From assembly GCF_013368755.1 (NCBI RefSeq), contig NC_049566.1:2232001-2296000 (forward strand): a stretch of DNA of 64,000 nucleotides, read 5' to 3'. The notes beneath the pieces were generated by a model that was not told where the DNA came from, made no database searches, and saw only the letters and a program-made list of their open reading frames with translations. Positions 20,479-43,545 of the stretch are shown here, piece by piece (the stretch's first letter is position 1; each line of letters opens with the position of its first letter). This DNA is from Talaromyces rugulosus (Eukaryota; Ascomycota; Eurotiomycetes; Eurotiales; Trichocomaceae). A program made the position numbers and the translations under genes.

Positions 20479-21612
20479 AATACCGGGAAATGCAGGAACG
20501 CGGATACCGTTCAGCAACGTTGCGGCGACGTTGTGTGGGTTTGCAACGTATCAAGGAGACTACACAAGCATGACCGTTGCAAATGTCACTACGTATCCAA
20601 TTTTCTAAGCGTAGTGACTTTTTGCGACATATCAGCAATATGGTAACATTACAAAGTGCGAAACGGTTACAAACCACTTTCTACGTTACAGAATTTGATA
20701 CGTCTATATTTCTTAATATGTTATAAATTAATTATAATTTAAATAGAAGCCACTTAAATTTTTGATATTCTAATTACAGATAGAGAAGCTATAGCGAAGC
20801 CTATACTAAGCCCTACAGAACCAATATAATAGTGTACTCAGAACGCTTGCAGGGTAGCCTGCAGGCTTGTATATATTGATTTAACTAAATTAAGAAGTCT
20901 GTAAGCTGGTTAGTAAGGCTATATAGGGGGAAAGATTAACAACATACTAAGAAGCTTACAAGAAGCTTATAGGGTGGCCTGCAGCGAAGCCTACAAATCA
21001 GTTAGTAAGGCTATATAGAGAGGGGTTGACAATATACAGAGGAAGCTTTCAGGGTAGCCTGCAGGCCTGTATATACCAATTTAACACTCTGAAAAGCCTA
21101 TAAGCTGGTTAGTAAGGCCATATAGAGGAGGGTTGACAACGTATTAAGGAAGTTTGTAAGGTGGCCTACAGGCCTGCATACACCAATTTGACACTCTGAG
21201 AAGCCTGCAAGCTGGTTAGTGAGGCTTTAGGGAGAGAGGGGGTAAATATATATATATATATATATCTAAGTATGGTGTTGATATATATATTCAATGTTTA
21301 CAACGGTCAGGGTAAACGCGTCGACGCGTGTGATTTGTTTTATAGGTCTATCAATTCAAAAAATCAGGTTTTATTGGTTCTATATATGAATTATATGATT
21401 GCATGATGGTTGCAACATTTAAAACGTATCGAAATTAGATACGTTGTGGTTTTATGATACAGAGAACAACGCTGATACGGTCAATAAATTGGCAATGTAT
21501 CAATAATTTAACGGTATTAATACCATTTTTTGGTTGTATGACTATTACCAAGCCTATCAACGTTGCCGCGACGTTGCTAAACGATATCCCCATTCCCCCA
21601 AAAACCGGTATT
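20479..21612. mobile_element. Candidate non-autonomous TIR element with internal minisatellite
   Basis: The left end (20479-20535) and right end (about 21558-21612, reversed) share an imperfect inverted repeat. Both begin AATACCGG, then GGATAYCGTTYAGCAACGT, then GCGGC and ACGTTG. Mismatches between the arms are mostly C/T transitions. The TA inside AATACCGG on each side could be a mariner-type TA target site, but the exact border is uncertain. No transposase frame is visible, so it would be a MITE-like or decayed element. Inside are a 9 bp perfect hairpin stem (GTCACTACG / CGTAGTGAC, 20585-20618) and a tandem repeat block. Confidence 0.55.
20845..21240. repeat. Degenerate minisatellite, about four units of 90-110 bp
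   Basis: Units share the order GCTTnCAGGGTAGCCTGCAG, CTTGTATATA, CAATTTAACACTCTGA, GCCTnnAAGCTGGTTAGT, AAGGCTATATAG, GGGTTGACAACnTA. Copies differ largely by C/T and G/A transitions, compatible with RIP-type decay. A (TA)n run follows at about 21245-21266. Confidence 0.75.
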
Positions 21613-21648
21613 GGTTTGAATCAAATCGCCCTGACAACAACCAACTTG

Positions 21649-22296: not shown

Positions 22297-22299
22297 GTT

Positions 22300-23669: not shown

Positions 23670-24873
23670 ATGCGGTCCATTCTGAGCGTCTCGTCACTTC
23701 TGCTGGCTACCACCTTGGTGTCAGCTGATGACTCAACTTACAATGTCAACGCTATCTGCACTAGGTTTGTTTGTCCACATTAGTTGATAATGCTTGTTGG
23801 GGAGTACTTGCTAATTTGAGTGTCTATGACAGTGACCAGATGATGCGTTATTACGGTACCTCTAATAACGGTCTTTGGGGTGGCTCTTGGTGGCAATCTG
23901 CTATCCTAATGGCCTCTCTCGCTGACGTCGGGTCCCTCGATTCCAGCTACAATGGGACTTACTTCGACGCCTACGCCAATACTTATAGCAATGCTCCCAG
24001 CTTCAACGGCTATACCGGTTTCATTGATCAATTTTACGATGACGAGGGCTGGTGGGGAAACGCATGGCTCACCGTATATGACTTGACCCAGAACCCAGAC
24101 TATTTGAACTTGGCGATTAGTATTTACGACGACATGGCTGGAGGACTAGGCTCCCCATGCGGTGGAATATACTGGCAAAAGGATGCTGACTACATCGCTT
24201 CGATCGCCAATGGTAAGATATCTAGAACTTCTTTCTGCTTGCAAAATAACAGTAACTGATATCGAGACCAGAACTCTACATTGCCCTCGCAGCCGGCCTG
24301 GCCAACCGCGTCTCTGATGACCAAAAACAAGGCTACCTTGACGCCGCAACCACCGGATGGGACTGGTTCTTCAACATCGGCGTTGTTGGCGACGACTGGC
24401 TTGTCGTAGATGGTGTCGACAACAGCACATGCGAACCAACTGGAAACAAATATTCATACAACCAAGGTGTCATTCTCAGCGCAGCTGTTGACCTCGCTAA
24501 AGCCACCGGAAATTCTACCTATCTCGATCTTGCAGGAAACATCGCCAATGCCACTACTACAACAAACGGTACCTTTGCTGACGAAAACGGGATTCTCAAG
24601 GACTGTGATAACGATAGCTGCGATATCCAAGGTGCGATGTTCAAGGGCCCTCTATTCCGTGGCCTACGCCAGTTGCAGCTTGCCAGTCCTCATGACAACT
24701 GGAAGGACTTCATTACAACCAATGCCAAGTCTCTTTGGAATAACGATCTAAACGTCACAGATGGAGATTGCAACACTGGCTCGTCTTTTGCTGGACCTGT
24801 GACTGGTGTGAATGAAGTAACCCAAGGTGCTGCTCTTGACTGCCTTGTCGCCGCGTGGGCTGTTACTTCCTAG
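23670..24873 (+). CDS. GH76 endo-alpha-1,6-mannanase, secreted
   Basis: Exons 23670-23764, 23833-24212 and 24272-24873 give 358 residues. A signal peptide (MRSILSVSSLLLATTLVSA) is followed by the GH76 barrel: WGGSWWQSAILMASL, YDDEGWWGNAWL with the adjacent catalytic Asp pair, GGIYW and a YSYNQGVILSAA segment. Family members cleave the alpha-1,6-mannose backbone of fungal mannan (endo-acting) or act as Dfg5/Dcw1 wall-protein transglycosidases. This copy is shorter than Dfg5-type proteins and stops at CLVAAWAVTS with no Ser/Thr-rich tail or GPI-anchor signal, so free secretion is likely. It is the left-most gene of the mannosidase cluster and is convergent with the acid phosphatase. Confidence 0.9.
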
Positions 24874-25397
24874 ATGTGAGCTTAGAAACATCGGGAATTC
24901 CATGGCATTTTGTCATGTTATACTTGAATAGACCACTGTTAAATTCACTGTATCTAGTATTAGTTGGGGTCTTATTGTGATCGTGAAAAAATGCTTTAAG
25001 AACCAACTTCAAATTTATTTCTTCTTGGCTATGCAGATATTAGTGTTGACGACTTAATATTGAAGGGAATAGCTGTAACAGATTGTTATTTTATTGTCTC
25101 GAAAGTACCGGGAAAGATGAAGATCAATGTTATACACCGGTGCCCCTACACGTAACATCGAAGAACGAGAAAACAAATATAACATTGAAATAACATTTGA
25201 ACCGAAGACATAGTACATGTATACTTAACTACATGGAATAATGACTATCGTCGAAATATTGTCGAAAATTAATACCAGACTATAAACACAAGGGGCATTA
25301 AATACCACAGCACTAAATAGTTATTTATTCCAAGTCCGCAATCCTCAGCTATTACCAGGACTATAGTGTGCAGACAGTTCCAAAGTTCGATTCAGAA
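24874..25397. other. Convergent spacer between GH76 and acid phosphatase
   Basis: 524 bp of AT-rich 3' flanking sequence with no gene recognised. Confidence 0.55.
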
Positions 25398-27134
25398 CTA
25401 TGAACTCGGGATCGCGCCATCAGTAATATTACCGTAGCTTGGTGTAGAGTAATCACCAAAACAACTTTCGTTATAGTTGGCTTTGTCGATATTTTCCTGC
25501 TGAAACTTGATGAAGGTCTGCAATTCACACCAGCCATCGTCGCGTTTCCCACAGTCAGGGATGCTCTCTCCAAGCGGAACAGTTCGCTGGTTTATTAACA
25601 TGTGAACATATGTCGTGTTGCTCCCAGAGGTGTCGTACGGAGATTCACTCGAATCTTGTGGTCTTTTCTCCAAAACAGGGTATGGAGCTTTGATTATTTC
25701 AAAAAGGAAGTAACCAGCAAATGGAACAACTTCGCTCACAATGGCAGACCGATTTGTTGCTACTTGAGTCGGGGAAAGATATTCTCCAAATTGGGAGAGT
25801 CCCAAAGCCGTGATCATTGCAAAGATCTCAGTGTCATGGCTGAAATCAAAATAAATTGTCTGATTTAGGGGGAACGTAGAATTGCTGCCGTCGAGAGTCG
25901 TGTTGAAGGCGATTGAGCCGTCTGACGGATCTGGCAGGTGTTGAATCAACCTGGCCACGAATTCTTCGACAAATCCTAGCCCTATTGCTCGACCCACAGG
26001 AGAACCCATCCCATAGTTTCCGTAGAATTGAATATCAAAATTATACTCAAATCCAACCCACTCATCCCACGTGAACAGTAGGCAGAACGGGCTGTAGCCA
26101 AAAGCAGAAGTCTCATATGCGCACAGGGACTGTATGTCGTTCAAATCGTCTACCGTCCAGTTGGCACTGCCACCATTGGTCTGACTTTGGAAGCGTGCCG
26201 TCGCATTTTGCAGATAGTTGGATGTCCACTCACTAGTCGCCGAGTCAGACGTCTTGCCTTGCCCGCTCACAGCATTTGCACACATCTGGTCACCACCCAT
26301 ACTGTTGTTGAATCCTTGCGAATCAATCACCACCTCGAGAGTGACGTTCTGGGTCCATTTGGAACCAAAGAATCCATACATAAAAGCTTCAGCAGACTGG
26401 ATCATCCGCATCATAGTTGTTGTGCGAGCGATCAGACCCGAGCCTGGGTCATACAGTTGGCCATAGTTGTAGTAATGAAGGATACCACTATCAAATAGTT
26501 CTTGACGTCCGCGAGCCGTCAATTCATTCTCCCCAAGCTGATAAGTCCAACTGTTCAGAAAAGATAGATTGCCCGTGAAGACTGTGCCATTTTGAATAAA
26601 GCTGTTGATTTTGTCGACGACACCTGGCTGGGAAGTCGGATACCGAGATCCATGGCGATGAACCATGTGAATTTGGCTAATATTGGATCCAGATGGTAAA
26701 GGATACTCATCGGCGCCGAATCCATTTGTACTTGGCTTGTAAGGGCTAGTGTCATTGCTTGTTAGCTGCCGTTTCCTTTCTTCCCCCTTGTTTTGTTGTC
26801 AAAAACTAAAGCACATACCTCAAGTTACCCATATTAGAGAATATACTAGCCCCATCTGGCTTTCCAGGGACCGGAATGTCGGTCACTAAAGGCCCATTGG
26901 GGACGTACGTAGGTTGCGCCAGTGCTGGGTTTGTCTGTGCCAGGAATGGGACACGTCCAGTTTCATATCCCCCTAATTAACGAAGTTAATATTGACAGGT
27001 TTCTTAAAAAGACTAAATAGAGTATACGTACCGGCATACGGCCCATAACTGGTCTGGAAATAATCCGGGATTGCTGTTGTTGTTGCATCAGCTATTACTG
27101 TGCTTGCAAAAGCCAAAACCCAGATAGGCACCAT
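25398..27134 (-). CDS. Secreted histidine acid phosphatase (phytase-like)
   Basis: Exons 27032-27134, 26819-26972 and 25398-26745 give 534 residues. A signal peptide (MVPIWVLAFASTVIADA) precedes the catalytic motif IHMVHRHGSRYPT (RHGxRxP, phospho-accepting His) and, near the C-terminal third, IYFDFSHDTEIFAMI (catalytic HD pair). There are many N-x-S/T sites. It belongs to the branch-2 histidine phosphatases, secreted enzymes that hydrolyse phosphomonoesters. Placement between GH76 and GH92 suggests it could release phosphate from mannose-6-phosphate or phosphomannan fragments; that is inference, as phytate or other esters are also possible substrates. Introns are 59 and 73 bp. The 62-residue segment before RHG is longer than in compact phytases. 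Confidence 0.88.
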
Positions 27135-27675
27135 GATGCAAACAATGAAATGAAGTCTTGTTTAATCGGTTTTTAACTCGCAGAAGATAGGGAACGGGTG
27201 TGTTTATATATGCCGATGTTTCCTTTCACTGTAATTACATGTAGACTTAGTCCGGGTGAGATGGGGTTTCATTTAGCATGGGTAGGTACATGGGGCCCCT
27301 CAGCAAGCCGCGTATTGAATGTAACGTTCCCACATTTTGATGGCAATTACTCCGTTATTCCACTAGCTACTTAGGGAGACTGGTTATTTACTTATCAGCA
27401 ACCGTGCTTTACTTCACTCTTAGTGTGAATGAAATAGAATATCAAAAAAATTTCTACATGCGATACATTATACATCATAACTGCAGCAAGCAACAATGCT
27501 CTTGAAAACGAAAATAAAACAAGAGGAGTAACAAGAGAGATGGAATGGTGCTCTTCGTAGCTTTTTAAATTTGATTCTGATCGGTTGATGCCTCACTTAG
27601 TTATCTCCCTTCAATAGGGTGTAAATATGTACACAACTCTCCCACTGTAAAAATTCTCTCCTAGGAACAATACAC
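27135..27675. other. Upstream region of acid phosphatase / 3' flank of GH92
   Basis: 541 bp, AT-rich. Nothing beyond promoter and terminator sequence is apparent. Confidence 0.5.
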
Positions 27676-30207
27676 CTATGAACCCGTGCTCTCGGATGCT
27701 GGGCTTGGGGGCAATGGGCCCATTGCCCACTGCTGTGGTTCATCACCCAACTCAAATTCTAGACTTCCTCCATCCTCAAAAACATCTTGCCATGTCAGCC
27801 AAGTTTGGTTCCAGCTTTGACCGTTCACTCGAAGCTCCTGTACATAATACTGGCTATCTCCGTTATTATCGCCTCCAGTGGCTGTGATGTTTAGTTCCTT
27901 TCCGGATCCTAGATCGATCACCATCTCATCAAACCACGGTGAGTGAATTAGGAACGTATTTTGACCAGTCACTGGGTACAAGCCAATCATGTTCCATATC
28001 AGCCAAGTCTGCATTGCACCAGCATCACTGTTTCCAGGAAGTCCGCTACTGCTCGTGGAGTAATTGGATTTGGCAATTGTGCGAGATTGAAGCACTGTGA
28101 GATCCGGCCGATTGATGTAGTTGTACAGATAGGGGACTGCGAACATACTATTGGTTTTGTCAGATCCGTCATTCTCGTGCAAATCAAAAACTGGTATAAA
28201 ACCAGAATAATATGTGTCCAGGTTACTTACGGTTCATTCGTTGGGTCAAAAATGTTCGATCCGTCGTTAGCCCCAGCCTCAAAGGTTTTGTTCAGGCGCT
28301 CTTCAAAGGCAGTCGAACCACCCATAAGATCGATCATAGCTGCTGCATCGTGGATATCAGTGAATGAGTATGCCCACGCGCTACCTTCGTATAACAGATC
28401 CCCCCAATATCCGGTGCTGTCCATAACGTCTGTTTCCTGGAATCCAGAAAGATTCCGGGCGGTGACGAATCCAGAAAACCCCAGAGCAGTGGCATCAGGA
28501 TTGAAATGATTGCGCCAATTGCGAGACCGGTTGAGGTATTGGTCCGATTGTTCTCCCAGCCCTTTGGCTACCTGATACAAAGAAAAGTCGTTGTATGCGT
28601 ACTCAACCGCCCGAGATACGGAACGGGTATAGTTGGGACTAATAAACCCATATTCCAACCAGTCTGGAAGTGCTCCACGCCCTTCTTTGGTGGATGAATC
28701 AGGGGCCTGTGGGTCCACAGGGTCGGTATTATTAGGTTGTACTTCTGCGTCCTTGACCATCGCAGCGAAGCCATCATGCCAGTTGATCTGACCCCGGACC
28801 CCTTTCACGTATGCATCGGCAAGCACGTTATCTGCATTGGATCCCCCTTGGGTGCGACCATTGTAGTTGGATGATCGTGCGTCTGGCAGATAACCCTCGT
28901 TGCGCCAGATGTCAATGATCGAGCGGAGTTGTTCCTCGTACGCGACGGGCTGAAGAACATGCATGAGGGCCGTTCCGCAACGAAAGAGATCCTATGCAAC
29001 ATTAAATTAGTTTTGTTTCATCCAAAGAAAAGTCGGACAGTGCAAAGCAATAAAAAGTGCACAAACCCAAAATGTGAAAATGTCTTGGTAGTAAGGTTCG
29101 GTCGAATTCCATGCTGGTTGCTCGCCTGTTTGGTTTGTTGGAATTAAGTGCATAAAGTAAAGTGAGCTATAGAGCAGTTGTAAACTTGTTGTATTTGTCG
29201 CAGAAGTCTTAATTTTTGATAAGACATCGTTGTTCCACTCTGTTTTTGTTTCTTCGATGAGCTGAGTAAAATTGCTGTTGGGTGGAATCTCGTTCTCCAA
29301 GTTTTGGCATGCCCGAGTTGTTGATATCCATGAAATTCCCACGCGAGAAACAACATCGGAACTGTTGAAGGAAAAGAGAGCTCCTACTCTGGTCTCGGAA
29401 GAGTTGGAGAATGCTGATCCACTGGACTGAGCAATACTACCAGTCGAATCAGTAGCATTGTACGTAGTATTGGTTGTAATCGTTGTATCAAAGTAGCCAC
29501 CTAAAGATACGTAGTATACTATGTTAGACACTAACAATTGAAACGAATAGAAAAGTTGGATTCTTACAAAAATATATACTCCAGTCTGGAGAACGATTCC
29601 ATCCGTTGTTATACGCCCCATTTCCCTCGTAGTGACCGTCATTGAAGACAGTGATATTACCGCCTTGATATGTCTGCGCAAGACCACTACCACGAAAATC
29701 AGGAAGAAAGTGCGAGGCATCGACTAAGACATTTTTTGTGTCATCAGAGCTAGGAAAAGTATAACGAAACATTCCGGCCCGATGTGTACCGGCCAGTTCA
29801 ATCATCACACTTTCGTTTGTCCACGCATTGTAGTAGCCCACGGAGGCTTGGTCGGTCCCATTGCGTCCAACCGTAATATTGGACAATGGATCGGAGATGT
29901 TACCAACTAGAGGCAATTGAGTAACTGTGCCGTACTTTGGAGCTCCTCCAGTGCCTTGCTCATGCATCAGACTAAATCCTGAGAAGTTTCCAGTGCTTGC
30001 GTAACCTGAGTAGGCATCATTCTTCCCATTGAGAACATCGGGACCTAGTTTCACCATGCCAAAAGGACGCGAAACGCCTGGGAAGTCATTCCCTCCCCCA
30101 TCAGTGCCTATGAATACGTCAACGTATTGGGTATAATCATCGGCTTGACAAGAGACGGTCAACACCAGGACTAAATAAACAAAATGTCTCAAGATACTTC
30201 CAGCCAT
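27676..30207 (-). CDS. GH92 alpha-mannosidase, secreted (copy 1)
   Basis: Exons 29568-30207, 29067-29500, 28231-28991 and 27676-28147 give 768 residues, a normal GH92 length. It has a signal peptide, then YVDVFIGTDGGGNDFPG and FSLMHEQGTGGAPKYG in the N-terminal beta-sandwich. The catalytic alpha/alpha barrel contains TQGGSNADNVLADAYVKG, SRAVEYAYNDFS, LLYEGSAWAYSF (YEG Glu, proposed general acid), DIHDAAAMIDLMGG and GLPGNSDAGAM. GH92 enzymes are Ca2+-dependent exo-acting alpha-mannosidases for alpha-1,2, -1,3 or -1,6 links. Compared with the second copy in this cluster, GNDDSG is GNSDAG and APHD is DIHD, so specificity probably differs. The last intron (83 bp, 28148-28230) contains an open stretch starting MHENDG that is not coding. 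Confidence 0.92.
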
Positions 30208-30787
30208 GGTTTATATTTCCTCAACATAAAGAAGACGTAGAATATTGGAAGTAGACAGGAAGACAACAAGTGACAGTTTGAGAAACAGTAGTATACACAA
30301 ATAGGAAAACGTTCAGACAATAGCGAACCTTACGATACCCAAAACGGAAACATGAATACTTCACACTCAGCTAGTCATTCTAATTCAGATGTAACCTTTT
30401 GGTTTTGTACGTTATAGCTAGTAATTACAGAGACTAGAATAAAAGCCACTGGTGCATATTAGCTAGTATGACCGCATTAGGGGCTTAGCCACCATGCTAC
30501 TGCTAATGTAGGAATTTCATAGCCAGATTATCAGTGGGTACTTGGGTTTTCTTAATTTAATTTCTTGTCCAAGGAGTCTATAGAGGTTAGCGTTTATGCT
30601 CTGAAATTAGCCACAGATTCCTTCTAGTAGGGGTTGCATTGAACATAGGCCAAACTCGGTGCGGTTTTCATCCTTCCAAGGAACAGAATGAATTTCTGGT
30701 TCCGTCGGTGCGATTTAACACACAGTTACACTATAACTCGATAAAACTGTACAAAATCTTAAAACTATGTAAGAAAAATACTAAATA
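30208..30787. other. Upstream region of GH92 copy 1
   Basis: 580 bp between the GT8 3' end and the GH92 start. AT-rich; no gene recognised. Confidence 0.5.
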
Positions 30788-31738
30788 TCATACAATACGG
30801 TCCTGCATACGTTGCAAGGCATCCTGAATAGAGCGTTCTTTCTCTTCATCATCAAGAGGCTGCCACCATTTGTGATGCAATGACAAGACATCAGCGGGGT
30901 ATTTCTGTCCCAGAGCAGTAATTGAATTCCACGACGAATTTAGCCCTTTCCATGGCATAGGACCGTCAGTGCGGTAGGCATAATTTATGAGATTTTGTTC
31001 GGGATAGGACGTGTCAAATTTGTCTGGCTGGTCCAACAAACTTAACAAGTATTCATACATGTCCACTGATGGAGCCAATGCCATAAATCCAGCATTTATA
31101 TAATTCTTTGGCTCGTAGAATTCTTTTCCGGGTGGTGGCTTCAGGAAACTTTCGACATACCAGTCGTGAATCCCAGCTAGGAGATAGTGTTCGGGGATAG
31201 AATTGGTATCTTCAGTAGTCGACTTGGTTTCTTCGATCATGCTAACGGAGTCCATGAATATGTCATCCAACGAGTGGAAAAGGACAGTGTCTGCGTCCAA
31301 GAAGGCGACTTTCTCGTAGTCAGTCAGGGTCCATAGTTTAAGCTTGGCCATAACGCCATTCCAGCGCTCCCATTTTGGTTTGATCCAGTCACGATCAGGA
31401 GAATCGACCTGGATGACTTTTGCGCCTATTTGATTCATCTTTTTCCGCTTGTCTCCAGGCACATCTTCTGTAACAAGAATTACGAATGGAAGACCGGTTT
31501 TAGATGATGTGAGAGGGTCGTGGAGAAGCTGGTAGGCGAGCAGCATAACAGCTGTGAAGTATTTGTCCGAGTCGGGCCCGTCATATCCGGTCAATATTGT
31601 TGCGTATGCGTACTTCGGGCCCCGGAAAGGTATTGTGAGATTTTGGAAGGAGGCCGTATAGAGAGTAGACCAACCCCAAAATAATATCACGACACTTAGG
31701 GTAGATAGAAAGAGAACAATTTTCATTTTATTGATCAT
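30788..31738 (-). CDS. GT8-family glycosyltransferase, type II membrane protein
   Basis: A single exon of 316 residues from the first true ATG at 31738 (the frame is open further upstream only through a TTG codon). A short cytoplasmic tail and one TM anchor (IVLFLSTLSVVILFWGW, about residues 6-22) precede a GT8 domain: YAYATILTGYDGPDSDKYF, the DxD metal/nucleotide-sugar site in VAFLDADTVLFHSLDD, NYINAGFMALAPS and YPEQNLINYAY. GT8 includes glycogenin and Golgi GlcNAc/galactosyl transferases, and the anchor suggests the Golgi lumen. It is the only biosynthetic enzyme among the degradative genes, and it is intronless. It might modify the cell's own glycans or the cluster's secreted enzymes. Donor and acceptor are unknown. 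Confidence 0.85.
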   Translation of the reverse strand: MINKMKIVLFLSTLSVVILFWGWSTLYTASFQNLTIPFRGPKYAYATILTGYDGPDSDKYFTAVMLLAYQLLHDPLTSSKTGLPFVILVTEDVPGDKRKKMNQIGAKVIQVDSPDRDWIKPKWERWNGVMAKLKLWTLTDYEKVAFLDADTVLFHSLDDIFMDSVSMIEETKSTTEDTNSIPEHYLLAGIHDWYVESFLKPPPGKEFYEPKNYINAGFMALAPSVDMYEYLLSLLDQPDKFDTSYPEQNLINYAYRTDGPMPWKGLNSSWNSITALGQKYPADVLSLHHKWWQPLDDEEKERSIQDALQRMQDRIV

Positions 31739-33689
31739 CGTGGAAATCTGAGTAGCATGGGTAATGCAATCCTGGAAGCGAAAAAGATGGATAATTTTTA
31801 GCAACTACTGATTCCAAGATTCTACGGAAATTTTTTCGGGGGGCATATCTCAAGCAAGGACATAATAGAGCACGTAATTTTAGTTAACTTGAAGAAAGGA
31901 AATATCCACTTTATTCAAGGGCATAGTGATTTCCTTGAAGGGAGAAAGGGCTGACGATCTGCTTAATTATGGTTTGATCAGCATTGGGATTAATGGCAAA
32001 CTTCCTAAAACACAAAAAAAAAAAAAAAGACGACCACGAACGTGCTGGTGGGTCAGAAGGGTTTGGAGTCTTCGGACACTATTGTCAGGGAACGTTACAA
32101 TACAATATCATAATAAGTTGTGTATGGCTTGTCGGTACACTGTATTAAAACAGCCCCCAGATCTCGATTCAGGATACTTTGACGATCTATGGAACTGTTG
32201 GCATCAACGCCTAAATCATCCTAGTCGCATCTTGTAATAAACCAATATCAATCCTACAGCTAAAGACATCAAATTTTACCATCCCTGCCAGATAATATCA
32301 AGTATTTCCTAATGTAACAAAGAAGGAACGCTGTGGCTTAGTGTTATCTCATGCAGTCATTACTAAATAGAGCGAATGGAAGCAAGAGGTCAAGGCTGGC
32401 TGTATCAAGATGCTAGATAAATTATTGTAAACCATGCATCTCTGGGGCCAAGCACCGATAAAAGTTACGTCGGTATTTAATTAGATGCCGTTTAGAGTCT
32501 GAATTAGTTTGTATATTCAGTGTAGACTGAAACATAGCCACAGAAACCTAGTTAGCTGTAAATCAGGTAATACTCCGTCATTAGCATATAATTGCTCTTA
32601 AGGCTTGAGTTGACTTGGTTGTAATGCTAGGCCTCTTGGAGAACTCGGTCAGTCAATAACATCTGGAGTTTCTGGGTGAAATCGATAGGTCAGTCCCTAG
32701 ATACACCAAGGAATGAAACTGAGGCATATAACAACAGATTTAGCGTACTCACTCACAATGCACTTTTATACAGTTTTTAAACTGGCTAGAAATTTACCTT
32801 TGGTTTTACTATTGTGAACTGGGGGTGTGAAGACAGTTTAAAACTCTCAATATTTTTTTTTATGTAACCAAAGACATCAAGAATAGATAGGCTACTTACA
32901 TTATTAAATAGAGAATCAAATAGAGAATCGAAGTTTCTCATGTCAATCAAATATCACATGTCATTGTTTGCCTACCTACATGTGCTTCGACTGACTCGGG
33001 TATCACTGGAGATCTTCGCCACACCGGGAATCAGAAGTGAAACTCAAATTTATAAATTACAGCTGTCTTGTTACGAGCTAAGTTAGCGTCTCAATATTTA
33101 TCTCGATCCTCTCAGTGACAGCTAGCGGATACGACGATCAGGGGTCCTCGCTATATATCTAGAAACGCAATAGACAGATGCCATCGTACAGTTTTGGGAC
33201 TCGAAGGAAACCCAGGGTTGCATTCGCATGTCAACTAGTGGGGAAAACTTTTATTAGGGCGTTTTTTTGGCTTGGACTACTGGACCCTGAACATGTGATC
33301 TGACTTTTTAGCTGCAGTAATAATGTCTAATCCCTAAGGTTTGCTTACGGGAAATAATGTTGGATAATAAGGATTGATCAAAGGCGATGGTTTTGATAAC
33401 GGCACCAGCTTGATTATTGGCGCAGTTAACGTGCTGGGAAATAATATGAGATTTTGCTTGGGTCTAAGGATCAATGAGTGGTGTGTTATACTATTACTTT
33501 GAACTGTACATGTGAAGGGCTTTCAATATTTTTGTATACCAGTTACATCTATATAAAACATTGAGCTCAATGTTATGTTTCCATAACTGAAGATATAACA
33601 ATACATGTAGGCACGAATAGTTTATGCTAGGTTAGACCAGAGTGTGCTCATCTCTAGAAGTTTGAAACCCCGCCGATGGTTTGTAAATC
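31739..33689. other. Large AT-rich intergenic region with transposon remnant
   Basis: 1.95 kb inside the mannosidase cluster. Apart from the copia-like remnant near 32130-32237 and an A16 run near 32012-32027, no gene is seen. It is the largest gap in the cluster. Confidence 0.5.
32130..32237 (+). mobile_element. Ty1/copia pre-integrase remnant
   Basis: The frame ends DDLWNCWHQRLNHPSRIL followed by a stop. The LW-x-x-WHQRLNHPS block resembles the gag_pre-integrase motif LWHxRLGHxS just before the integrase zinc finger of copia elements. Only this short piece is recognisable; no integrase, RT or LTR was seen around it. It would be a very old fragment. Confidence 0.4.
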
Positions 33690-35373
33690 CTATTCCTGGA
33701 TCAAAAATGGGTGTGCTTCAGTGTTGAAGACGAATTTGTTCAATCCATTTGCTTTGACCTGCCAGTCGGCATCTTTTGTGGAAGTTAGAAAACGGCTAGG
33801 GCTATCAAATGAGGAGACTTACCATCGGCAAATGTGAGATAGCAGTATTTCAGCACTTCAGCAAAAAAGAACGAGTCTTGATTATTTTGGTAACCGCCAC
33901 CATCAGCATCGTACACGTTGGCTAACTCAGCATTCCCGGAGCCAGCCGAGGTGGTTTCGTTGATTGCTACGTAGGCATCCCAAACCCAGTCACGGTACTG
34001 TACGGATTTGTCAGTTCCATTTTATCGCATACAAGTATTCCGAAAAAACAAAGATACTCACCTTTTCATCACCTGTGATTCGCCATGCATAATAGTAGCT
34101 TTCGATAACTTCAGGTCTCAGGATGTAGTTGCCATTAGTGGAGTAAATTCCGGTCTGGTTGTAGAATTCCTGTTGGTCGTCTGGGACTTGAGTTTCATTC
34201 CAGCCGAACGAGTCAGGTCCAACATGACTAGTCGATGATGCGTAAGTGTGATGCCAGGCTGCTGTTAGATTGAGTCCATACTCAATCAAATCGGTACGTT
34301 TGAGAACAGTGCCACCCAATATGAAGTTGCCACCAATAAACCCAGTAAGGTGTTGAGAGCTATTATCCCAGGAGCCGTTGTTATAGTTACGAACAAAAGT
34401 CAAATCTGGGCGCAGAGGTGGATGAGAGGTAAGATTTTCAATTGTTGAGTTTGCAGCAGCCTCCCAACGATCACGATAATCAGAGAACCGCGAAGGACTG
34501 TAAATATAGAACTTGATGAGATACTCATAGAAAGAGTCATCACCACCATTCCATGTTACCTGGTCATCCTGAAACTCTCCTGACTCAATATCGATGTTGC
34601 TACCAACGAGACCAGGAAAGGGTTCAGCCCACGAGGGCTGGGGACTCATCAGATATGATTGAGCCTTCTGGCTAAGATTGGCGTAGGTCTGGTTGCCGGT
34701 CAGATCAGATAGGCGCGTCCACTCAAGGACTAAGGTCCCGATTGTTGCCAGGCCGTTAGTCGATGAGTCATCCCAGCTCTGGTTATTCAGAAAGATGTTA
34801 TTGTGTGGAATGCCAGATCCTGAATTGAAGCTGAATGCTAGTGAGTCGGCCAATTCTGTGGCCTTACCCAGGATAGCATCCGTTTTGTTCTGGTCATTGA
34901 TCAGGTGAGAAGCAGGGCCATTAAGCAGGTCATAACCCGCCAACAAACCACCGAGGTAACGAATGGTGGTTTCAAACAGACTAATGGTGCCATCTGTTGG
35001 GGTTTGAGTGAAATCAACTATCGGTATATAATCGAGTATTTGGTTGACAATGTCGGCATGGCCCATGATAATGGCAGTTGACAGAGCATCAATCGCCGAA
35101 GCTCCCCAACCGTCGCTTCCCATCAGTCAGCCAATGACTTGCTCACTTTCCGGGCAGTAGCTGGACTTACTAGTTATCATTGTAGGTGTTGTCCAACGGT
35201 TGGAGTTGGTCATGGGGGAAAGCAAACTCATAATAGCCATCCCACGCATGGTGAAATGTAGCCTTGACAGCGGCTGCGCGTGGTTCACTGGTATTGGAGG
35301 TGGCCGTCGCCGTAATAGGCTCGATGGCAGCGAAGATGGCAGTTGCCAAAGGAAAGAACGACGCACGCATCAT
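33690..35373 (-). CDS. GH47 class I alpha-1,2-mannosidase, secreted
   Basis: Exons 35171-35373, 34062-35115, 33823-33997 and 33690-33772 give 504 residues, typical of the secreted GH47 enzymes of Aspergillus and Penicillium (about 510). Signal peptide MMRASFFPLATAIFAA is followed by FHHAWDGYYEFAFPHD, the intron-spanning [72 protein letters not shown] and the C-terminal FNTEAHPF, all GH47 landmarks including the catalytic acidic residues and the Thr that coordinates Ca2+. It trims alpha-1,2-linked mannose from high-mannose glycans by inversion. No ER-retention or TM anchor is seen, so it is extracellular rather than an ER glycan-processing enzyme. The last exon is short (83 nt) and supported by frame continuity. 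Confidence 0.93.
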
Positions 35374-36330
35374 GATTGGAAAAGAGCGGTGGCTGGTAAA
35401 GAGCCTGGGGGGGAACGAACGAAAGAATGAGATGTAGAGCATAGAAATATCAAAGACTGCCTGACCTTTCCTTGGTTTATACCTTTCTAAATCATACTCC
35501 GCTTACAGTGGAGTCTCTCTTGCCATCTCATAATTAGGATTGACAAGGATTTAATTTCCGCTACCCTTGATCAATATTCCCCTTCATTACATCCAAGGCA
35601 GAAAATACCGCTTTATCGCCGATATTTAGTGGTACCGCTTGTAAACCCTAGTATACCAACACAAATAAACTCTACCATTGGTGGGCGCTAACATGTTCTA
35701 GCTTATAACCCGTGCACACATGTTTTTCTAGATTTCTCCATTTATTAGTTCTGGGGCTGGGAAATAGAACTAACTGTATTACACGATTGGTAATGACCCA
35801 ACCGCATGTTATTTATAATACCATGTGGCTAGTAAGTGAGTTCCTTATATCCGTAGCTAAGCGAGGCTGGGGGAAATACTGTACTATCAGCCGTGGAAAT
35901 TCGCCGACGTTCAGGCCGCGACCTGACACCAGCATCAGCCCCCAATATTTTGACGTCACGTCGCAGTTTGTTTGCCCTTGTACTAAACAGTACATACTTT
36001 TGACTCAATAAGATTGTTCCTGTTGTTGTACAGAACAATAAGATTCAGAAACCACATAAATTTCATAAAATAACGGAATCTATATTCCGCTATTTTATGA
36101 AAAAAATTCAAAACCACTACAGCCGTAACTTGAACATTGAACAATTGACTCCGAGGAAGGCTTGGTGAACAAATCAATTAATAATAAAGGGCAAACGAAA
36201 AGTTGCTTAAGATTTGACATATTTAAGTACAGAAATTTTGTAGATATTGGCTATATAGTAAAACTTGATGCCTATATATATCTAGATAGTAGTCATTTCT
36301 ATATAAGTACAAAAATATCCATGGTCAGGG
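35374..36330. other. Intergenic region between GH47 and GH125
   Basis: 957 bp, AT-rich. It contains a near-perfect hairpin at 36061-36102 (separate entry). Short ORFs here show no domain. Confidence 0.5.
36061..36102. repeat. 19 bp inverted repeat (hairpin)
   Basis: TTTCATAAAATAACGGAAT (36061-36079) and ATTCCGCTATTTTATGAAA (36084-36102) are complementary with one mismatch around a 4-base loop. It may be a foldback relic or a transcript 3' structure; it lies 229 bp downstream of the GH125 stop on the minus strand. Confidence 0.7.
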
Positions 36331-38047
36331 CTACTGGAAGCTGTGTTGAAGGATATGCGGCTTCCTTTGGTAGAGTTCAAGAATCATTTGACCGAAGAGG
36401 CCGTTGGCCCAAGCAAACCTACATTGGCTGTTAGTAGACTTTCGTTGAATTCACACAGGAGATAAGTGGTTGGGACAGATATCACTTGAACATACCATTG
36501 TCTAGAAAAATCGCCGCCATCGTTTACGTTGACGCTCTCGTGTATAAGCCCTATAACACAAATTAGCGAACTCACTCAGAATAAGGTATCAATTAATATA
36601 GGTTGGGTACCAGTTCCTCCAGTGCTACCGAGCAATAGCTCCAGCGTACTGATTATTTCCTCGTCATCGTCACTCGTCATAATGCGTACGATCAAGCTCA
36701 TCGGCCACACGCGACCGAAACCTGTATGCGGACTTCCAATGCCGGCAATGACGGAACCGTTGCCATAGTATGGATTTTTGCTACTAAGAAGAAGCTTTCG
36801 AGTTGCCTGAAAGGTGGTGTCATTTGTCCCTACGTAGCCATAGACAGGGGCACCGAGTAGGCTTGGGAGGTTGGCATCATCCATGATGTTCTGACTACCG
36901 TATCCGTCCACTTCAAAGGCATAGACAGAAGTCGTCTGGCCATCCACTGTTGTCACTTTCTTAACTCCCCATTTCTGGATAGCCTTTGAAACAGTTTTGG
37001 CCAAAGTTGACATTTGATCGGCGAGATCAGATTCACCGATCGCGTTAGCAATTGACACACTAGATGACAGGGCACTCGAAAACATCATATTGGCCGGAAT
37101 GAAGCCCTGATAAATGGTGGCGTCATCAGATGGCCGGAACCAGGAGCGGATGAGGCCAGTATTCTCGAATGCGTTACCCGAGCCACTGTTGTCCTGGGTG
37201 CCTTCACTATCGCTTGATAGTCGCGTAAATGTATAGGGCGTAGTTGTCACACTCCCATCGGCCGAGTACGTGCTATTTTGTAGATAGTAGGATTGGTTCA
37301 ATATAGACTGCACAGTCTGCGTCCATTGATAGTTGCTGAAGAACGAGGAGTCATTTGTCACCCGATAATAACTGGCTGACAGGTCCAAGAAGGAAGCGAC
37401 AGAATCTAACTCCCATTTGCACTCGAATACGGTATTGTTGTTGTATGATGGTGTCACATTGTCATTGTCAACGGCTCCGTTGGCGGTAGCTGAGATCTGA
37501 GACTCCGCTGGTGGTTGAAAAGCTTGACAAAAGAAGCTCTCATTGAGATATCGTGCTTGCAAATTGATCGCTCCACGGTATAGAGAGCCGATAGTATTGT
37601 TGGCAGACAAAACCGGAAGATAGGATTTCAACTGATTTGCCGAGTCTCGCAACCACATTGCATCGCTTGCCTCAATCAGCAGGGATGCTCGCATCCTCTT
37701 TCCAAAGGTACTCACATATCACCTGTTATTATGAAACTCAATTCCTCTGACGTATCGTCACTGGAATTGCCAACCCATCTCACCGTCGTATCCAACGTGT
37801 TAGGCCATGCATTCTGGAAAAGCTGGTAGAGGTCTGGGTCGGCTATCTTCTGTTGCATGTCGGTAATAACACCTTCGACCTCGGATGAGCTGAACGACCT
37901 GCATTCTTCAGGCGGACGCATTGACGAGAAGTTGTATTTGCCAGAAGAGAAGGGAGCATGCGCTTGGCCGGTGTACGACACATAGTCCTGGCAGTCTTGG
38001 GCCGCTGCAACGGCGGCCAAGGCGAAAAGAATCCACGTCGATACCAT
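36331..38047 (-). CDS. GH125 exo-alpha-1,6-mannosidase, secreted
   Basis: Exons 37716-38047, 36611-37665, 36496-36550 and 36331-36418 give 509 residues. A signal peptide ([16 protein letters not shown]) is present. GH125 motifs, rebuilt across introns, are [89 protein letters not shown] and [16 protein letters not shown]. The enzymes are metal-independent inverting exo-alpha-1,6-mannosidases that remove backbone mannose after side chains are gone. The third exon is 55 nt and the fourth 88 nt; both are required to reach the conserved C-terminal NGLFGQ segment, and phase holds at all three introns (50, 60 and 77 bp). It complements GH76 by finishing the alpha-1,6 backbone. Confidence 0.93.
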
Positions 38048-39216
38048 CTCTAGTTGGGTTTTCTACGTGATGGCTTGTGTGGATGGTATAGTGTTTCTCA
38101 ACCTACGTATACCGTGATACTCTTGCAAATATTATAGCTAAGACGAGACGAACCCACGCACTGAACTCACGCACCTGCTCTCACACTCGTCATTGGACGG
38201 CTGCACACAAGACAAGACAGTGTACGTTCCTGCATATGATATTCACAAGTCTTGCCCAATTCGGAGCGAACTGGAGAAATTGGAGAGATATCAGCCCTGA
38301 ATATCCGTGCCGTGTAGCCGCTGAACTTGACGGGTTCGATGTAACTGGGGCCAATGCACTAGACTCCATAAAGGTCAAAAATACGAGACCGGGGATGTAA
38401 TTTTAATACGATCTACGATCCGGTCTCCGCCATGCGCCATGTGGGGTCCGTAAGGGAACGTGGCAGGTGCCGATCTTTATACCTTATTCGATATAGCGCC
38501 CCCCGTCTTGGTAAATTACACGACGATTTATCGCACAACGGAGCCTTCCTATGTCCGATCACTTCAATCGTTCACAGTAGCCCTATTCCGTATCGGGTAA
38601 TTAAACTAACAGACCTCAATGACAATGTACTCTTTGCGGCGCATTTTGTAATTCCATGGTTACACACATATAGTCATCACATGCAAACTAATAACCTTTG
38701 TTGCTAGATAGAGGGAAAATAAAGGCAAAATAAAATTAATATTATTCCAAATGTTACCTCAAAAAACGAACGAAAAGCCATTTCAGCCCCATTTTGAATG
38801 TGGCTTGGGATGTTCCTTGCAACAAAGTAGAAAGATGTTTGCGGAACAGACACTTATTTGCCTTTGCTGTCAGATTATGGTCCGTAGCAGTATATACCTG
38901 TAAGAAGCATTGAATTATCTCGGTTTCATCTAGACCCTTTGTGACAGTATGCAAAAATAAGTGGTTTTATCAAAAAGGTAGTTTTATGGCATCATCCTAT
39001 TCAATTCTGAACATCGCTGTGCTGTTAAAACATGGCTTTTCTACAGCGATCGCATATCCTATAACCGAAGAAATACAATGTACATGTGATGTCCTAACTA
39101 TAACAATACAGGGAATATATTCATGCGCACGGAAATAGGTATCTAGCAACTCTAGCCTAGATATTGGTCAAGATACACCTTCCTACTTCTCCCCTTTTAT
39201 ATCCTTCTTTTGTTTT
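38048..39216. other. Intergenic region between GH125 and GH130
   Basis: 1.17 kb. It contains a 54-codon plus-strand frame from ATG 38236 to the stop at 38400 (ANWRNWRDISPEYPCRVAAE and more) whose composition looks protein-like but matches no family I know. Otherwise AT-rich with no recognised gene. Confidence 0.45.
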
Positions 39217-40281
39217 TCAAGGCTGCACGGGGGCGGACGCAACTCCCAGGTATGTGTCGGCCTCGCCAAAATACATTAGCCACTGGCCTTTGAACTGGAC
39301 TAATCCTTCACTGAATAACACATTATTCACCTGGCCTTCCTTCTCATCCGTGGTGTTTGGGGTCAGGATCGGGGTTTCCAATCGCGCAAGGGGGGGTCCA
39401 TATGGAAACAGACTGGGGTCAATGAGCATTTGACCGGTTGAATATTGGCCCTCCACGTAATCCCCTTTTGTCTCATCGGCAACGCCGTTGTATACCTTTA
39501 ACCATTTGCCATCACGTGTCTTTACTGGAGGCGGACCGGACTCAATTAATTTCTGCTCCCATTGCAGCAGGCCTGTTGCATAGGTGTCATTTGTCGGCAT
39601 AGTCCAGTGAACCAAATCAGGTGATACAGCCAGGTAAATCTGTTCATCGCCCCAGTGCATATGATAGTTGCCATCAGGTTGACGCTCATTCAAAATAGCA
39701 CCTGATTTGCTATGCTCAATATCAGGTAAAACAGGGCCTGTTTTGTTCCAGTTCAACAGATCAGTCGATGTTGCTTGGCAAAGCTTAACCCCATCATCGT
39801 CACTCCAACCAGTGTAAGTCAGATAAAAGGTTCCATTAACCCGGATCAGTCGAGGGTCTTCAGTTCCTTTGTTTTCATATGACTCGGTTGGGTAAAAAAT
39901 GGGCTCGGTATAGCGAGTGAAGTTGAACCCATCAGTAGACCATGCAAGACCCAGAGTCGAGATAAGGCTCGAGTTCTGCGCGCGATAGACAACAATCACC
40001 ATGTCATCAATCACCATGGCTGTCGGGTTGTAAACATAGGAGGCTTCCCAGCCACGGTTTTGATTGGCGCCTAAAATCGGATTGTTCTCGTACTGAGTCC
40101 AGTTGAGGATGGGGAATAATGGAGCCTTGTAGTTCTTATCCCCCTGGGTCGAGTTAGATGTAATCTTTGGCGGCGTACTGGACTCATACACGGGCGGGGT
40201 GCCATCGTTTTTTACGAATGACACACTTCCCGCAAGGGATTGTGCAAATAGCAAAGATAACACAAGTAGGGACTTAGCCAT
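39217..40281 (-). CDS. GH130 beta-mannosidase / mannoside phosphorylase, secreted
   Basis: A single exon of 354 residues. After a signal peptide (MAKSLLVLSLLFAQSLA), the five-bladed beta-propeller shows YVYNPTAMVIDDMVIVVYRA, KGTEDPRLIRVNGTFYLTYT, HMHWGDEQIYLAVS, LIESGPPPVKTRDGKWL and the terminal WLMYFGEADTYLGVA, all GH130 landmarks (EDPR loop with the proton-donor Asp). GH130 enzymes either phosphorolyse beta-1,4/beta-1,2-mannosides inside cells or hydrolyse beta-1,2-mannosides outside them. A secretion signal argues for the hydrolytic beta-1,2-mannosidase mode, because phosphorolysis needs intracellular phosphate. That fits removal of beta-1,2-mannose caps of yeast mannan. It is intronless, unlike all other GH genes here, and is divergent from GH92 copy 2. 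Confidence 0.9.
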   Translation of the reverse strand: MAKSLLVLSLLFAQSLAGSVSFVKNDGTPPVYESSTPPKITSNSTQGDKNYKAPLFPILNWTQYENNPILGANQNRGWEASYVYNPTAMVIDDMVIVVYRAQNSSLISTLGLAWSTDGFNFTRYTEPIFYPTESYENKGTEDPRLIRVNGTFYLTYTGWSDDDGVKLCQATSTDLLNWNKTGPVLPDIEHSKSGAILNERQPDGNYHMHWGDEQIYLAVSPDLVHWTMPTNDTYATGLLQWEQKLIESGPPPVKTRDGKWLKVYNGVADETKGDYVEGQYSTGQMLIDPSLFPYGPPLARLETPILTPNTTDEKEGQVNNVLFSEGLVQFKGQWLMYFGEADTYLGVASAPVQP

Positions 40282-40863
40282 CCTTGATCGAAGCTGGTGG
40301 TCTAATCAATACAGGTCAACATTGAAAACATAACAAAGATGAGCCAAGACAACAGCAGCACCGATAAAATATATACTTCATGCTAACACCGTTCCCTGTG
40401 ATATCAATCTAATCTAAATACAGTAATTCGATCTACATCAGCTAGGGTCGCTGTAATTAATCTTTCAGGGACAAGTTGACGTGGTATTGAAACACTAGTA
40501 CAAAAGTTTATCATGCATGCTGCGCCACTAGGGTTCCTTGGACCAAGCTCAATAATACGAAACGGAGTTTAATCCTACGCCGGCCTTGTTAGGTTAGACC
40601 AACAATTAGTATATCCGCAGGTGCCTTGTAATTTTGTATTTTTCTCTCATTGGGCGATAATGATCCGAACATCCTAGAGAGATATTTATGTATTGATATT
40701 CTCAAAGAACAATATAATTGATTAGTGTGGTTTTAAAAAAGAACAATGATTATAGCAAACAACCAAAAAAAATACACCCAAAAATATCAGCATCCCTCTT
40801 ATTTTTATGACTCCCCATCAATCTAGTTGACCTACTTGCAACATTCGAAGTATACAACAATAG
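40282..40863. promoter_or_regulatory. Divergent promoter region, GH130 / GH92 copy 2
   Basis: 582 bp between two start codons that face away from each other. It is the only divergent promoter in the mannosidase cluster, so the best place to look for a shared regulator site. I did not find a clear CreA or CGG-triplet palindrome by eye. Confidence 0.55.
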
Positions 40864-43545
40864 ATGATGAGGCTTTTTGCTGTATCCACGGCTCTATTGG
40901 CACTGACCAGTGTCAATGCTCGTTCATTGGCAAATACATCTTTCAATCCCCTTGATTATATCAACCCATTGATTGGAAGTGCCAACCAAGGTGTGTAATC
41001 AAATGAGTTGATCTGTGCTGGCCAGTGGCATTGCTAATATGCTCGTGGTAGGCCATGTATTTGCTGGCGCTACATTACCCTTTGGTAAGAAGTTATTGCT
41101 TCCCAATATAGCCAAATAGAAACAGCTGACCAGATTTCTTCTTCTAGGCATGGTGAAGGCGGTTGCAGATTCGGATTCGGATTCTGCGGGTGGTTTTGCC
41201 TCTGATGCTGGAAATATCATTGGGTTCTCGCAATTGCATGATTCTGGTACTGGAGGGGTGAGCACACCAGTCATAAACGAAGTTATCCGATTAAAAACGC
41301 TAATTCGTAAAAAAATCAATGTTTCTAGGCAAATTCGCTAGGAAATTTTCCCATCTGGCCGCACCCGAACTGTACCGACGACGACATAACGAGCTGCAAG
41401 TACAGCTCCGATAACAGAAGGACCGGCTATTTCAATGATTCATTGGTTGCCACAGCCGGTTATTTTGGCCTCACGCTCGACAATGGGGTTCAGGCCGAGA
41501 TGACGGTGTCAAATCATACAGCAATCTACCGGTTTACTTTCGACGCCGATGTGTCTCTCAACTCGCCGGTCATCTTGGTCGATGTGAGTGACTTGGAAGG
41601 TGGCCGAGTGAATGGATCTGCTTCGGTTGATTCTTCTTCTGGCCGCTTGACGGCCGCCGGGGTCTTCTCTCCGAGCTTTGGCGATGGCAGCTACCCTACG
41701 TATACTTGTATCGACTTCCAAGGGGCGGAGGTACGCAACACAGGTAATTTTGCCAACGAAGCCGTGGGAACAGGTAATACATCCATCAGTATTCCTGACC
41801 AGCAGTCGCTAGGTTCTGGGGGTGTCTGGACGCAATTCAAGGCATCTCAAAACAACACCATCCTGGCGCGAGTAGGAATGAGTTTCTTGAGTATTGACAA
41901 CGCTTGTCAAAACGCCGAGTCTGAAATCCCTAACTTCGATTTTGATGCCACACGCAAGGCGGCCGAGCAGGCTTGGAAGAAGAAGTTGAGTGTCATTTCC
42001 ATTGACCCAACCGGTGTATCGACAGAAAGACAGATACTCTTCTGGAGCAGTCTCTACCGAGGCTTCATCAGCCCTCAAGATTACACGGGTCAGAACCCAT
42101 TGTGGAACAGCTCTGAGCCGTACTATGACAGCTTTTATTGGTAAGAATAATTCATCACCCTCATTTTTTTCAATTTGGGTTATTTTTTTGCTAATTCACT
42201 TGCAGTATCTGGGACTCTTTTCGCGCAGCCCATCCGCTTCTCACTCTAGTTGATCCTTTATCCCAATCATACATGGTTCGCAGCGTAGTCGACACCTATC
42301 GTCACGAAGGATTTCTTCCTGACTGTCGTATGTCTTTCTGTAAAGGCTATACCCAAGGTGGCTCTAATGCCGACGTGCTCATCGTGGACGCCTATTTGAA
42401 AGGGGTTCCCGGTATTGACTGGGACACGGCATACGAGGCAATGGTAAATGATGCGGAGAACGAGCCGACAGACTTCACCATCGAAGGCAGAGGAAATTTG
42501 ACGCAATGGAAAGATCTTGGTTACATTCCTACGCATGATCCAGCCAGCCCGACACCAGGTAACGCTGCATTATATACGCGGAGCATCTCGAGAACTGTCG
42601 AGTACGCCTATAACGACTTTTGTATTTCCGTCATGGCCAACAAAACCGGGAAGCAAAACGATTATGAGAAATATACAGGTCGTGCAAAGAACTGGAAAAA
42701 CATGTTTAATAGCGATCAAACTTCAAAAGTCCAAGGATATGACACTGGCTTCACTGGCTTTCTACAGCCCAAGTATGAGAACGGAACCTGGGCCGAACAA
42801 GATCCAGCCTTTTGCTCCCCGATAAGCAACCCTGACAGCTGTTACTTCGGTAATACCAACTATGAGACCTACGAGGGCAGCGTGTGGATGTATACATTGT
42901 GCGTCCCAAATCTTCCTTATACCTAAGTTCTCCACTGACAGACTTTCAATGTACAGTTACGCGCCACATGACATGGGTGATTTAATTACTACTTTGGGGG
43001 GCAGAGAAGCCTTTACCAATCGACTTTCCTTTCTGCATTTTTCTAATCTTGCAAATATCGGAGATGAACAAGCCTTCTTGCCTGTCTACCAGTTCCACTA
43101 CGCCGGCCGTCCTAGTTTGTCGACACAGCGAGCTCGCGCCTATATAGCGACATCATTCAACACTACTGTTTCTGGAATCCCAGGAAACGATGATTCAGGA
43201 GCAATGGGTTCTTTCGCCGTCTTGACGATGCTCGGCATTTGGCCTGTGCCGGGGCAAGACGTTTACCTTCTCAACCCTCCTTTATTTAGTGAAGTTTCTA
43301 TCACTAATCCGTTGACTGGGAAGACTGCAACAATTCGTAACAAAAACTTTGACCCATCCAGCTATTCATCGAACATCTACGTTCAGAGCGCCACCAGGGA
43401 CGGTAAAGCTTGGTCGAAGAATTGGATTACCCATGACTTTTTTACCGAGGGAGGTGTTCTGGAACTGACTCTAGGAAATAGTGAGAGTAAGTGGGGGACA
43501 GGAACGGATGACTTGCCTCCAAGTTTGTCAGACTATGACTTTTAA
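40864..43545 (+). CDS. GH92 alpha-mannosidase, secreted (copy 2)
   Basis: Exons 40864-40990, 41052-41084 (33 nt), 41148-41257, 41329-42140, 42206-42898 and 42957-43545 give 787 residues. Signal peptide MMRLFAVSTALLALTSVNA is followed by YINPLIGSANQGHVFAGATL (across intron 1), FSQLHDSGTGG, FYCIWDSFRAAHPLLTL, YTQGGSNADVLIVDAYLKG, SRTVEYAYNDF, ETYEGSVWMYTFYAPHDM and IPGNDDSGAMGSFAVLTMLG. The YEG Glu and GNDD Asp pair expected for GH92 catalysis are all present. The first three introns cluster in the first 470 bp, an intron layout unlike copy 1, so the two GH92 genes are not a recent tandem duplication. Both ATGs (40864, 40867) are in frame; the first is used. Confidence 0.92.

Follow-up and report, generated by a model that had tools for sequence, protein, structure and literature searches.

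What does a compact run of mannose-active genes do in a fungus, and how did it come to be assembled? The question is raised by positions 23670-43545 of a 64,000-nucleotide stretch of Talaromyces rugulosus DNA (hereafter the window, to which all coordinates without a contig name refer), which corresponds to C6:2232001-2296000 in the 35.76-Mb, six-contig genome of strain W13939 (Eurotiales, section Islandici) and lies in the middle of its contig. The locus holds eight complete genes, in the order glycoside hydrolase (GH) family GH76, histidine acid phosphatase, GH92a, glycosyltransferase family GT8, GH47, GH125, GH130 and GH92b. Our analysis suggests that they probably constitute a catabolic carbohydrate-active enzyme (CAZyme) cluster for fungal alpha-mannan-type glycans, assembled in the T. 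rugulosus lineage from families that are otherwise dispersed; its enzymes would be secreted and would act on such glycans in successive steps, its genes would be induced together, and its assembly would be recent.

Gene models were obtained with a codon- and splice-site-based gene finder made for the window, with manual splice assignment for GH125, and all eight proteins exceeded the Pfam curated cut-offs for their families. Three models were checked against public proteins: the GH125 model is identical across its full 509 aa to the T. rugulosus protein TRUGW13939_11152, and the GH130 (354 aa) and GT8 (316 aa) models equal in length near-relative proteins of 95% and 96% identity, respectively. 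The first-pass annotation had described eight adjacent intact genes with no unrelated gene in between, an alpha-mannan toolkit assembled in a eukaryote; the models start and end at exactly 23670 and 43545, Pfam agrees with all eight family assignments, and the gene finder predicted no additional gene within the span. No gene model falls in the largest gap, 31739-33689, of which 1801 bases were searched and proved to be single-copy in the genome. That annotation had also counted six glycoside hydrolase families: six such genes stand, but they belong to five families, GH92 having been listed twice. Its signal peptides on the six hydrolases and the phosphatase agree with simple hydropathy analysis, in which all seven proteins begin with a hydrophobic, signal-peptide-like segment. 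Six of the eight genes contain introns. Third-position G+C of the cluster genes (0.47-0.55) lies at the low end of that of the other scored genes (0.44-0.70), and by this measure no single cluster gene looked foreign.

The clustering of mannose-active hydrolase genes at this locus is far beyond chance. When exon-wise matches were merged into loci, which gives lower bounds for the large families, the genome contained 8 GH92, 18 GH76, 9 GH47, 2 GH125 and 1 GH130 loci (38 in all), together with 4 GT8 and 12 histidine acid phosphatase loci. Six of the 38 fall within these 20 kb; elsewhere the maximum is two per 20 kb (C6:1123-1131k and C1:4414-4432k), and among 20,000 random placements five or more loci per 20 kb never occurred and four or more did so at a frequency of 0.0001. 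A fungal CAZyme gene cluster is marked by enzymes for one substrate lying side by side to a degree not expected by chance, and this is the arrangement found here. A neighbourhood without shared function, produced by rearrangement beside a gene-poor, transposon-bearing stretch and leaving each gene under separate regulation, would explain the proximity differently. Such an origin would fit the lack of a local regulator, the lack of a promoter 7-mer beyond the search-wide null, the degenerate transposon-like element on the left flank and a linkage indicated only in a near relative; it fits poorly with a 20-kb span holding six genes that share a substrate class, a density of which not even five were reached in the random placements, with the absence of any intervening unrelated gene and with a GH92 pair that is no local duplicate, and we consider it unlikely.

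Tandem duplication was likewise rejected as the origin of the cluster, because the two GH92 proteins share only 34% identity (33.5%). The nearest relatives of both within the genome lie on other contigs, for GH92a a paralogue at C5:2924k (71% identity) and for GH92b one at C4:3883k (66%); a tree of the eight GH92 paralogues places GH92a and GH92b in two separate, fully supported groups. The second GH125 of the genome (C3:411k) is 42% identical to that of the cluster, and two further GH76 proteins that were compared share 73.5% (C6:1131k) and 22% (C1:4414k) identity with the cluster GH76. The former, which is the most similar to the cluster GH76 among those compared, lies about 6 kb from a GH47 gene (C6:1123-1132k). 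At C3:5149-5168k (loci L042 and L043), genes for a GH92, a histidine acid phosphatase and a Zn2Cys6 regulator are grouped with what, by eye, look like two transporter genes. In Trichoderma harzianum, too, a Gal4-like regulator is located 2.6 kb from a GH92 gene (PMC4383378).

What the individual enzymes would contribute was assessed from family membership, conserved residues and solved relatives. First, the GH76 gene (23670..24873, plus strand; 358 aa; introns 23765-23832 and 24213-24271) encodes a candidate secreted endo-alpha-1,6-mannanase, whose closest solved relatives are the entries 9R4K-9R4T, one of them named CtGH76 (E 5e-29). The protein keeps the DD motif, begins with the signal-peptide-like segment and has no hydrophobic C-terminal tail of the glycosylphosphatidylinositol (GPI) type by hydropathy. 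CtGH76 belongs to a subfamily, mixed between Fungi and Bacteria, of secreted glycan degraders, unlike the GPI-anchored Dfg5 enzymes (PMC12295086), and the window protein, which had been proposed as a secreted, mannan-active GH76, looks like this degradative type. Its N-terminal part is shorter than that of CtGH76, its residue 33 matching residue 91 of the chain, and hydrolysis of mannan is a predicted property of the window enzyme. A Dfg5-type wall transglycosidase is disfavoured by the missing GPI tail, by CtGH76 being the closest match and by only 22% identity to a tailed GH76 of the same fungus.

Second, three genes would act on side chains and one on the backbone. The two GH92 exo-alpha-mannosidases, "a" (27676..30207, minus strand; 764 aa; 3 introns) and "b" (40867..43545, plus strand; 786 aa; 5 introns), both exceed an NCBIfam GH92 subfamily cut-off. 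The putative secreted GH47 alpha-1,2-mannosidase (33690..35373, minus strand; 486 aa; 4 introns) has as its best match chain 1KKT (E 1.9e-182), presumably from Penicillium citrinum, and the best solved relative of the GH125 exo-alpha-1,6-mannosidase (36331..38047, minus strand; 509 aa; 3 introns) is 2P0V, BT3781 (E 3.7e-89). Third, the histidine acid phosphatase (25398..27134, minus strand; 534 aa; 2 introns), apparently secreted and phytase-like, is closest to phytases (best E 6.8e-46) and contains RHGxRxP and HD, which we take to be the motifs of this phosphatase family. The intronless GT8 gene (30788..31738, minus strand; 316 aa) encodes a protein that begins with a segment resembling a membrane anchor by hydropathy and whose D-A-D at residues 148-150 is invariant across 25 aligned sequences; similarity to glycogenin is weak, and several relatives are named alpha-N-acetylglucosamine transferase in one source.

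The same proteins could in principle serve the fungus's own wall, with its galactomannan and N-glycans trimmed or recycled during ageing, autolysis or sporulation and the GT8 as a partner from wall synthesis. One gene of the eight would then be biosynthetic, as its membrane anchor and intact D-A-D suggest; the closest solved GH76 can bind GPI-core glycans besides alpha-1,6-mannobiose (PMC12295086), and the mannan of the fungus itself would presumably also be a substrate for the hydrolases. Set against this are a GH76 that lacks the hydrophobic GPI-type tail and is only 22% identical to a tailed one of the same fungus, the induction of four of the five hydrolase families by external necromass in Trichoderma (PMC11625536), and a linkage confined to a small lineage, contrary to a general wall function. 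We therefore regard self-directed remodelling as rather unlikely, though it is the rival that deserves the most weight.

A catabolic role, by comparison, draws on three lines of evidence, the Trichoderma induction, the bacterial loci and the GH130 residues, because of which fungal alpha-mannan degradation is the most likely function. Growth on fungal necromass induces four GH92, three GH47, three GH76 and one GH125 genes in Trichoderma reesei (PMC11625536), a response that by analogy is in line with the degradative role first proposed for this locus; the accessible part of that report mentions neither physical clustering nor a GH130, in both of which T. rugulosus would differ. Among bacteria, the alpha-mannan locus of Salegentibacter Hel_I_6 combines GH92, GH125 and GH76 (PMC9213526), and Bacteroides yeast-mannan loci include GH130, the BT3780 locus handling yeast mannan (PMC4599007), so that the combination of GH76, GH92, GH125 and GH130 ascribed earlier to bacterial mannan loci is found across the Salegentibacter and Bacteroides loci. 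The word "phosphatase" is absent from the main text of PMC9213526.

The likeness to the alpha-mannan polysaccharide utilization loci (PULs) of Bacteroidota lies in GH76, GH92 and GH125 being encoded together; in addition, BT3780 (GH130) and BT3781 (GH125) of the gut bacterium Bacteroides thetaiotaomicron have consecutive locus numbers, and GH125 and GH130 are neighbours in the fungal cluster too. PULs typically feature a SusC/SusD-like importer pair and a local sensor-regulator. In contrast, Pfam detected no importer of the SusC/SusD type and no such sensor in the eight cluster proteins and 12 of the 22 flanking models, and the fungal cluster consists of separate eukaryotic genes, six of them with introns, and adds GH47, GT8 and a phytase-like phosphatase. 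There is no sign that the two share an origin as a block.

Removal of side chains before cleavage of the backbone is the published model for the bacterial PULs, and a similar sequence may be envisaged here. GH130 would take off beta-1,2-mannose caps; GH92a, GH92b and GH47 would trim side chains of the alpha-1,2 and perhaps the alpha-1,3 type; GH76 would then cut the exposed alpha-1,6 backbone internally and GH125 would shorten it from the end. The acid phosphatase may remove phosphate freed from phosphomannan or, more broadly, from necromass, and mannose would be taken up through transporters encoded outside the cluster. Families with complementary linkages, and two GH92 of different subfamilies, were counted in favour of this reading. 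The alpha-mannans concerned are most likely those of necromass, yeast wall mannan or galactomannan, mannoproteins and high-mannose N-glycans. Soil necromass, in whose decomposition fungi take part, contains fungal mannan, and since members of these families are otherwise scattered through the genome, the compact set offers a defined enzyme mixture.

Apart from the GH130 gene of the cluster (39217..40281, minus strand; 354 aa; intronless), no GH130 was matched in the genome. Among solved structures, the protein is closest to 3TAW, to 5A7V, which we take to be BT3780, and to 3QC2. The last is BACOVA_03624, and both BT3780 and BACOVA_03624 hydrolyse beta-1,2-mannosides, an activity type marked by a lysine, a glutamate pair and the loss of basic phosphate-binding residues (PMC4599007). 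K192 of the window protein corresponds to Lys199 of BT3780, the beta-1,2 specificity lysine, and is invariant in 14 fungal sequences, although the lysine is also present in most phosphorylase-type GH130 rows. Glu268 of BT3780 is kept as E247, and Glu227 is replaced by D212 in all 14 aligned fungal GH130s; the two positions mapped by motif alignment that carry Gly and His in the phosphorylase type are E247 and N265. The resulting K-D-E-N set is shared by the window protein, 13 other fungal sequences and 12 bacterial or archaeal rows. The signal-peptide-like start, the lysine, the glutamate at Glu268 and the lack of the phosphorylase-type histidine are thus held in common with BT3780 and BACOVA_03624; the Asp in place of Glu227, and a fungal clade placed with Actinomycetota rather than with Bacteroidota rows, set it apart. 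With mostly hydrolase-type residues, it looks like a secreted beta-1,2-mannosidase, as the first-pass annotation had supposed, and is a fungal candidate for removing beta-1,2-mannose caps. A phosphorylase is disfavoured by the residues and the tree, though NCBIfam does not separate the two.

For the GH130 tree, the best 80 of 139 bacterial and archaeal loci found with patterns from fungal sequences were taken, of which a length and stop filter removed three, including the actinobacterial L055; the 91 rows comprised the remaining 77, 13 fungal proteins and the window protein, so that the fungal rows stand for 14 of more than 1000 relatives. The tree was midpoint-rooted and has long branches. 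In one half, the final two positions are Gly and His in 32 of 33 rows; in the other, 53 of 58 rows show K-(D or E)-E-N, the exceptions being KEEC, KHAA, RHEN and, twice, RHEQ. All 14 fungal rows belong to the latter half, where they share a clade with eight of the nine actinobacterial rows (support 100/98), adjoining Streptomyces, Amycolatopsis and Saccharopolyspora (support 99/94). This nesting suggests one old transfer from actinobacteria into filamentous ascomycetes as the simplest reading. No relatives of an Aspergillus GH130 (P0024) were found on viral contigs. GH130 as such is not new in fungi: a Cercospora genome lists one beside 9 GH47, 7 GH92 and 3 GH125 genes (PMC8496228). In Saccharopolyspora spinosa, one of the actinobacterial GH130 loci that most resemble the fungal ones (L053, 10001-13335) has a GH92-like gene directly downstream; GH130 and GH92b are also neighbours in the window, but divergent, across a 585-bp intergenic region (40282..40866) that by its layout may hold a bidirectional promoter.

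Transfer of a whole bacterial yeast-mannan locus into the fungus would account for the co-occurrence of the same families in bacterial mannan loci (PMC9213526; PMC4599007) and for the fungal GH130 within an actinobacterial clade. Against it, six of the eight genes have introns, the 120 GH125 relatives listed carry fungal names wherever named, and the two GH92 have paralogues of 66-71% identity in the same genome. The nearest GH130 loci are actinobacterial, and within at most 10 kb per side of the 80 bacterial and archaeal GH130 loci, GH92 occurs at four, GH125 at one and GH76 at one, and the three together at none. The GH130 neighbours and tree led us to reject block transfer, which we hold to be extremely improbable. 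A narrower scenario would have only the GH130 arrive long ago from an actinobacterium and the cluster act as the eukaryotic counterpart of a bacterial yeast-mannan locus for beta-1,2-capped, phosphorylated mannan, with the GT8 capping the mannan of the fungus itself and thereby shielding its wall from the secreted mannosidases; taken as a whole, this is an unlikely proposal.

The history of the arrangement was approached through a linkage proxy, in which the size of the longest contig reported for each homologue was compared by eye. The proxy is indirect, covers GH130, GT8 and GH125 (120 of 1095, 50 of 50 and 120 of 6222 proteins, respectively) and cannot always separate orthologues from paralogues. 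One contig size, 222,650 bp, goes with relatives of GH130 (95% identity), GT8 (96%) and GH125 (97%, a 360-aa partial protein), and this common size makes it very probable that a near relative has the three genes linked. Given this linkage and the separation of the genes in other fungi, the cluster looks recently assembled, within a narrow lineage and from dispersed fungal families. It had been reasoned beforehand that scattered orthologues in close relatives would speak against a cluster, and this is partly the case: linkage of three genes is indicated only in the relative at 95-97% identity, and the other fungi followed, Talaromyces proteolyticus among them, have them on different contigs. 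As far as could be checked, the arrangement has so far been found only in T. rugulosus and this near relative. In the literature open to our searches we found no fungal alpha-mannan gene cluster, though one may be in print elsewhere. The gene families themselves are already known, and the locus offers a testable case of how eukaryotic catabolic clusters form.

Several observations weigh against a catabolic cluster of this kind. One T. reesei GH76 is down-regulated on fungal necromass (PMC11625536). The GT8, which had been included in an eight-gene degradation set, does not belong there: judged from its sequence it is a membrane-anchored transferase, a misfit with no part in the degradation pathway. 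In the GH130, one glutamate of the marker pair is replaced by Asp, and its NCBIfam scores are much the same for a BT3780-like mannosidase (171.7 bits; cut-off 550) and a beta-1,2-mannobiose phosphorylase (168.0 bits; cut-off 450), both far under the cut-offs. In T. proteolyticus, the GH130 (79%) lies on an 811,580-bp contig and the GT8s (51, 44 and 40%) on three others, with no GH125 among the matches listed. GH130 and GH125 are on different contigs in all five species that both lists include with a single contig each (Coniochaeta sp. 2T2.1, Halenospora varia, Geosmithia morbida, Rhizodiscina lignyota and Bogoriella megaspora; Hortaea werneckii, whose entries represent several contigs or strains, was set aside), and GT8 and GH125 are apart in three of three (Penicillium cinerascens, Neophaeotheca triangularis and Lecanosticta acicola). 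A Pfam scan of the eight proteins found no regulator or transporter gene inside the cluster. Finally, the best 7-mer shared by the cluster promoters, GGGAACG, was equalled by the best 7-mer in 10.7% of 150 random promoter sets.

GGGAACG has six sites in the 5.7 kb of cluster promoters (five of seven promoters) and two in 46.9 kb of 57 other promoters. Counted over whole stretches, it occurs seven times in 22-44 kb of the window, twice in the remaining 42 kb and six times across ten other loci totalling 98 kb; of these last six sites, one precedes the GH92 gene at C3:5152k by about 0.6 kb. The extended form RGGGAACGTTACA has a single genomic occurrence, upstream of GT8, against two for its backward control. 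The best 6-mer, TAATTA, is AT-rich and was matched by 2.7% of the random sets; the cluster promoters are themselves AT-richer than the background (G+C 39.5% vs 47.0%). Sites that we take to be those of the carbon repressor, PacC and Zn2Cys6 regulators were not enriched in the cluster promoters, and presumed GATA-like sites were somewhat denser (4.2 vs 2.9 per kb) in these AT-rich sequences. Scanning 12 of the 22 rough flanking models in the window revealed a single sugar transporter, which lies at 11641-13416, ten kilobases from the cluster; the right neighbour of the cluster is a Vma22-like gene.

On the left flank, at 20478..21613, lies a degenerate repeated element of about 1.14 kb with imperfect terminal inverted repeats (69 nt, 74% complementary) and many partial genome copies. 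With 20100-23400 as query, at least 86 further partial matches were obtained in the genome (40 of 61 candidates scored), all but two of them inside the element. One copy, C4:3888804-3889573, sits 3-4 kb from the closest paralogue of GH92b. No RNA family exceeded threshold in 19000-45000, and ARAGORN found no tRNA gene in the window. At 550-2521 of the window, an FAD/NAD-binding oxidoreductase-like gene adjoins a cupin gene, a pair that, we would guess, recalls aromatic-acid degradation of the gentisate type.

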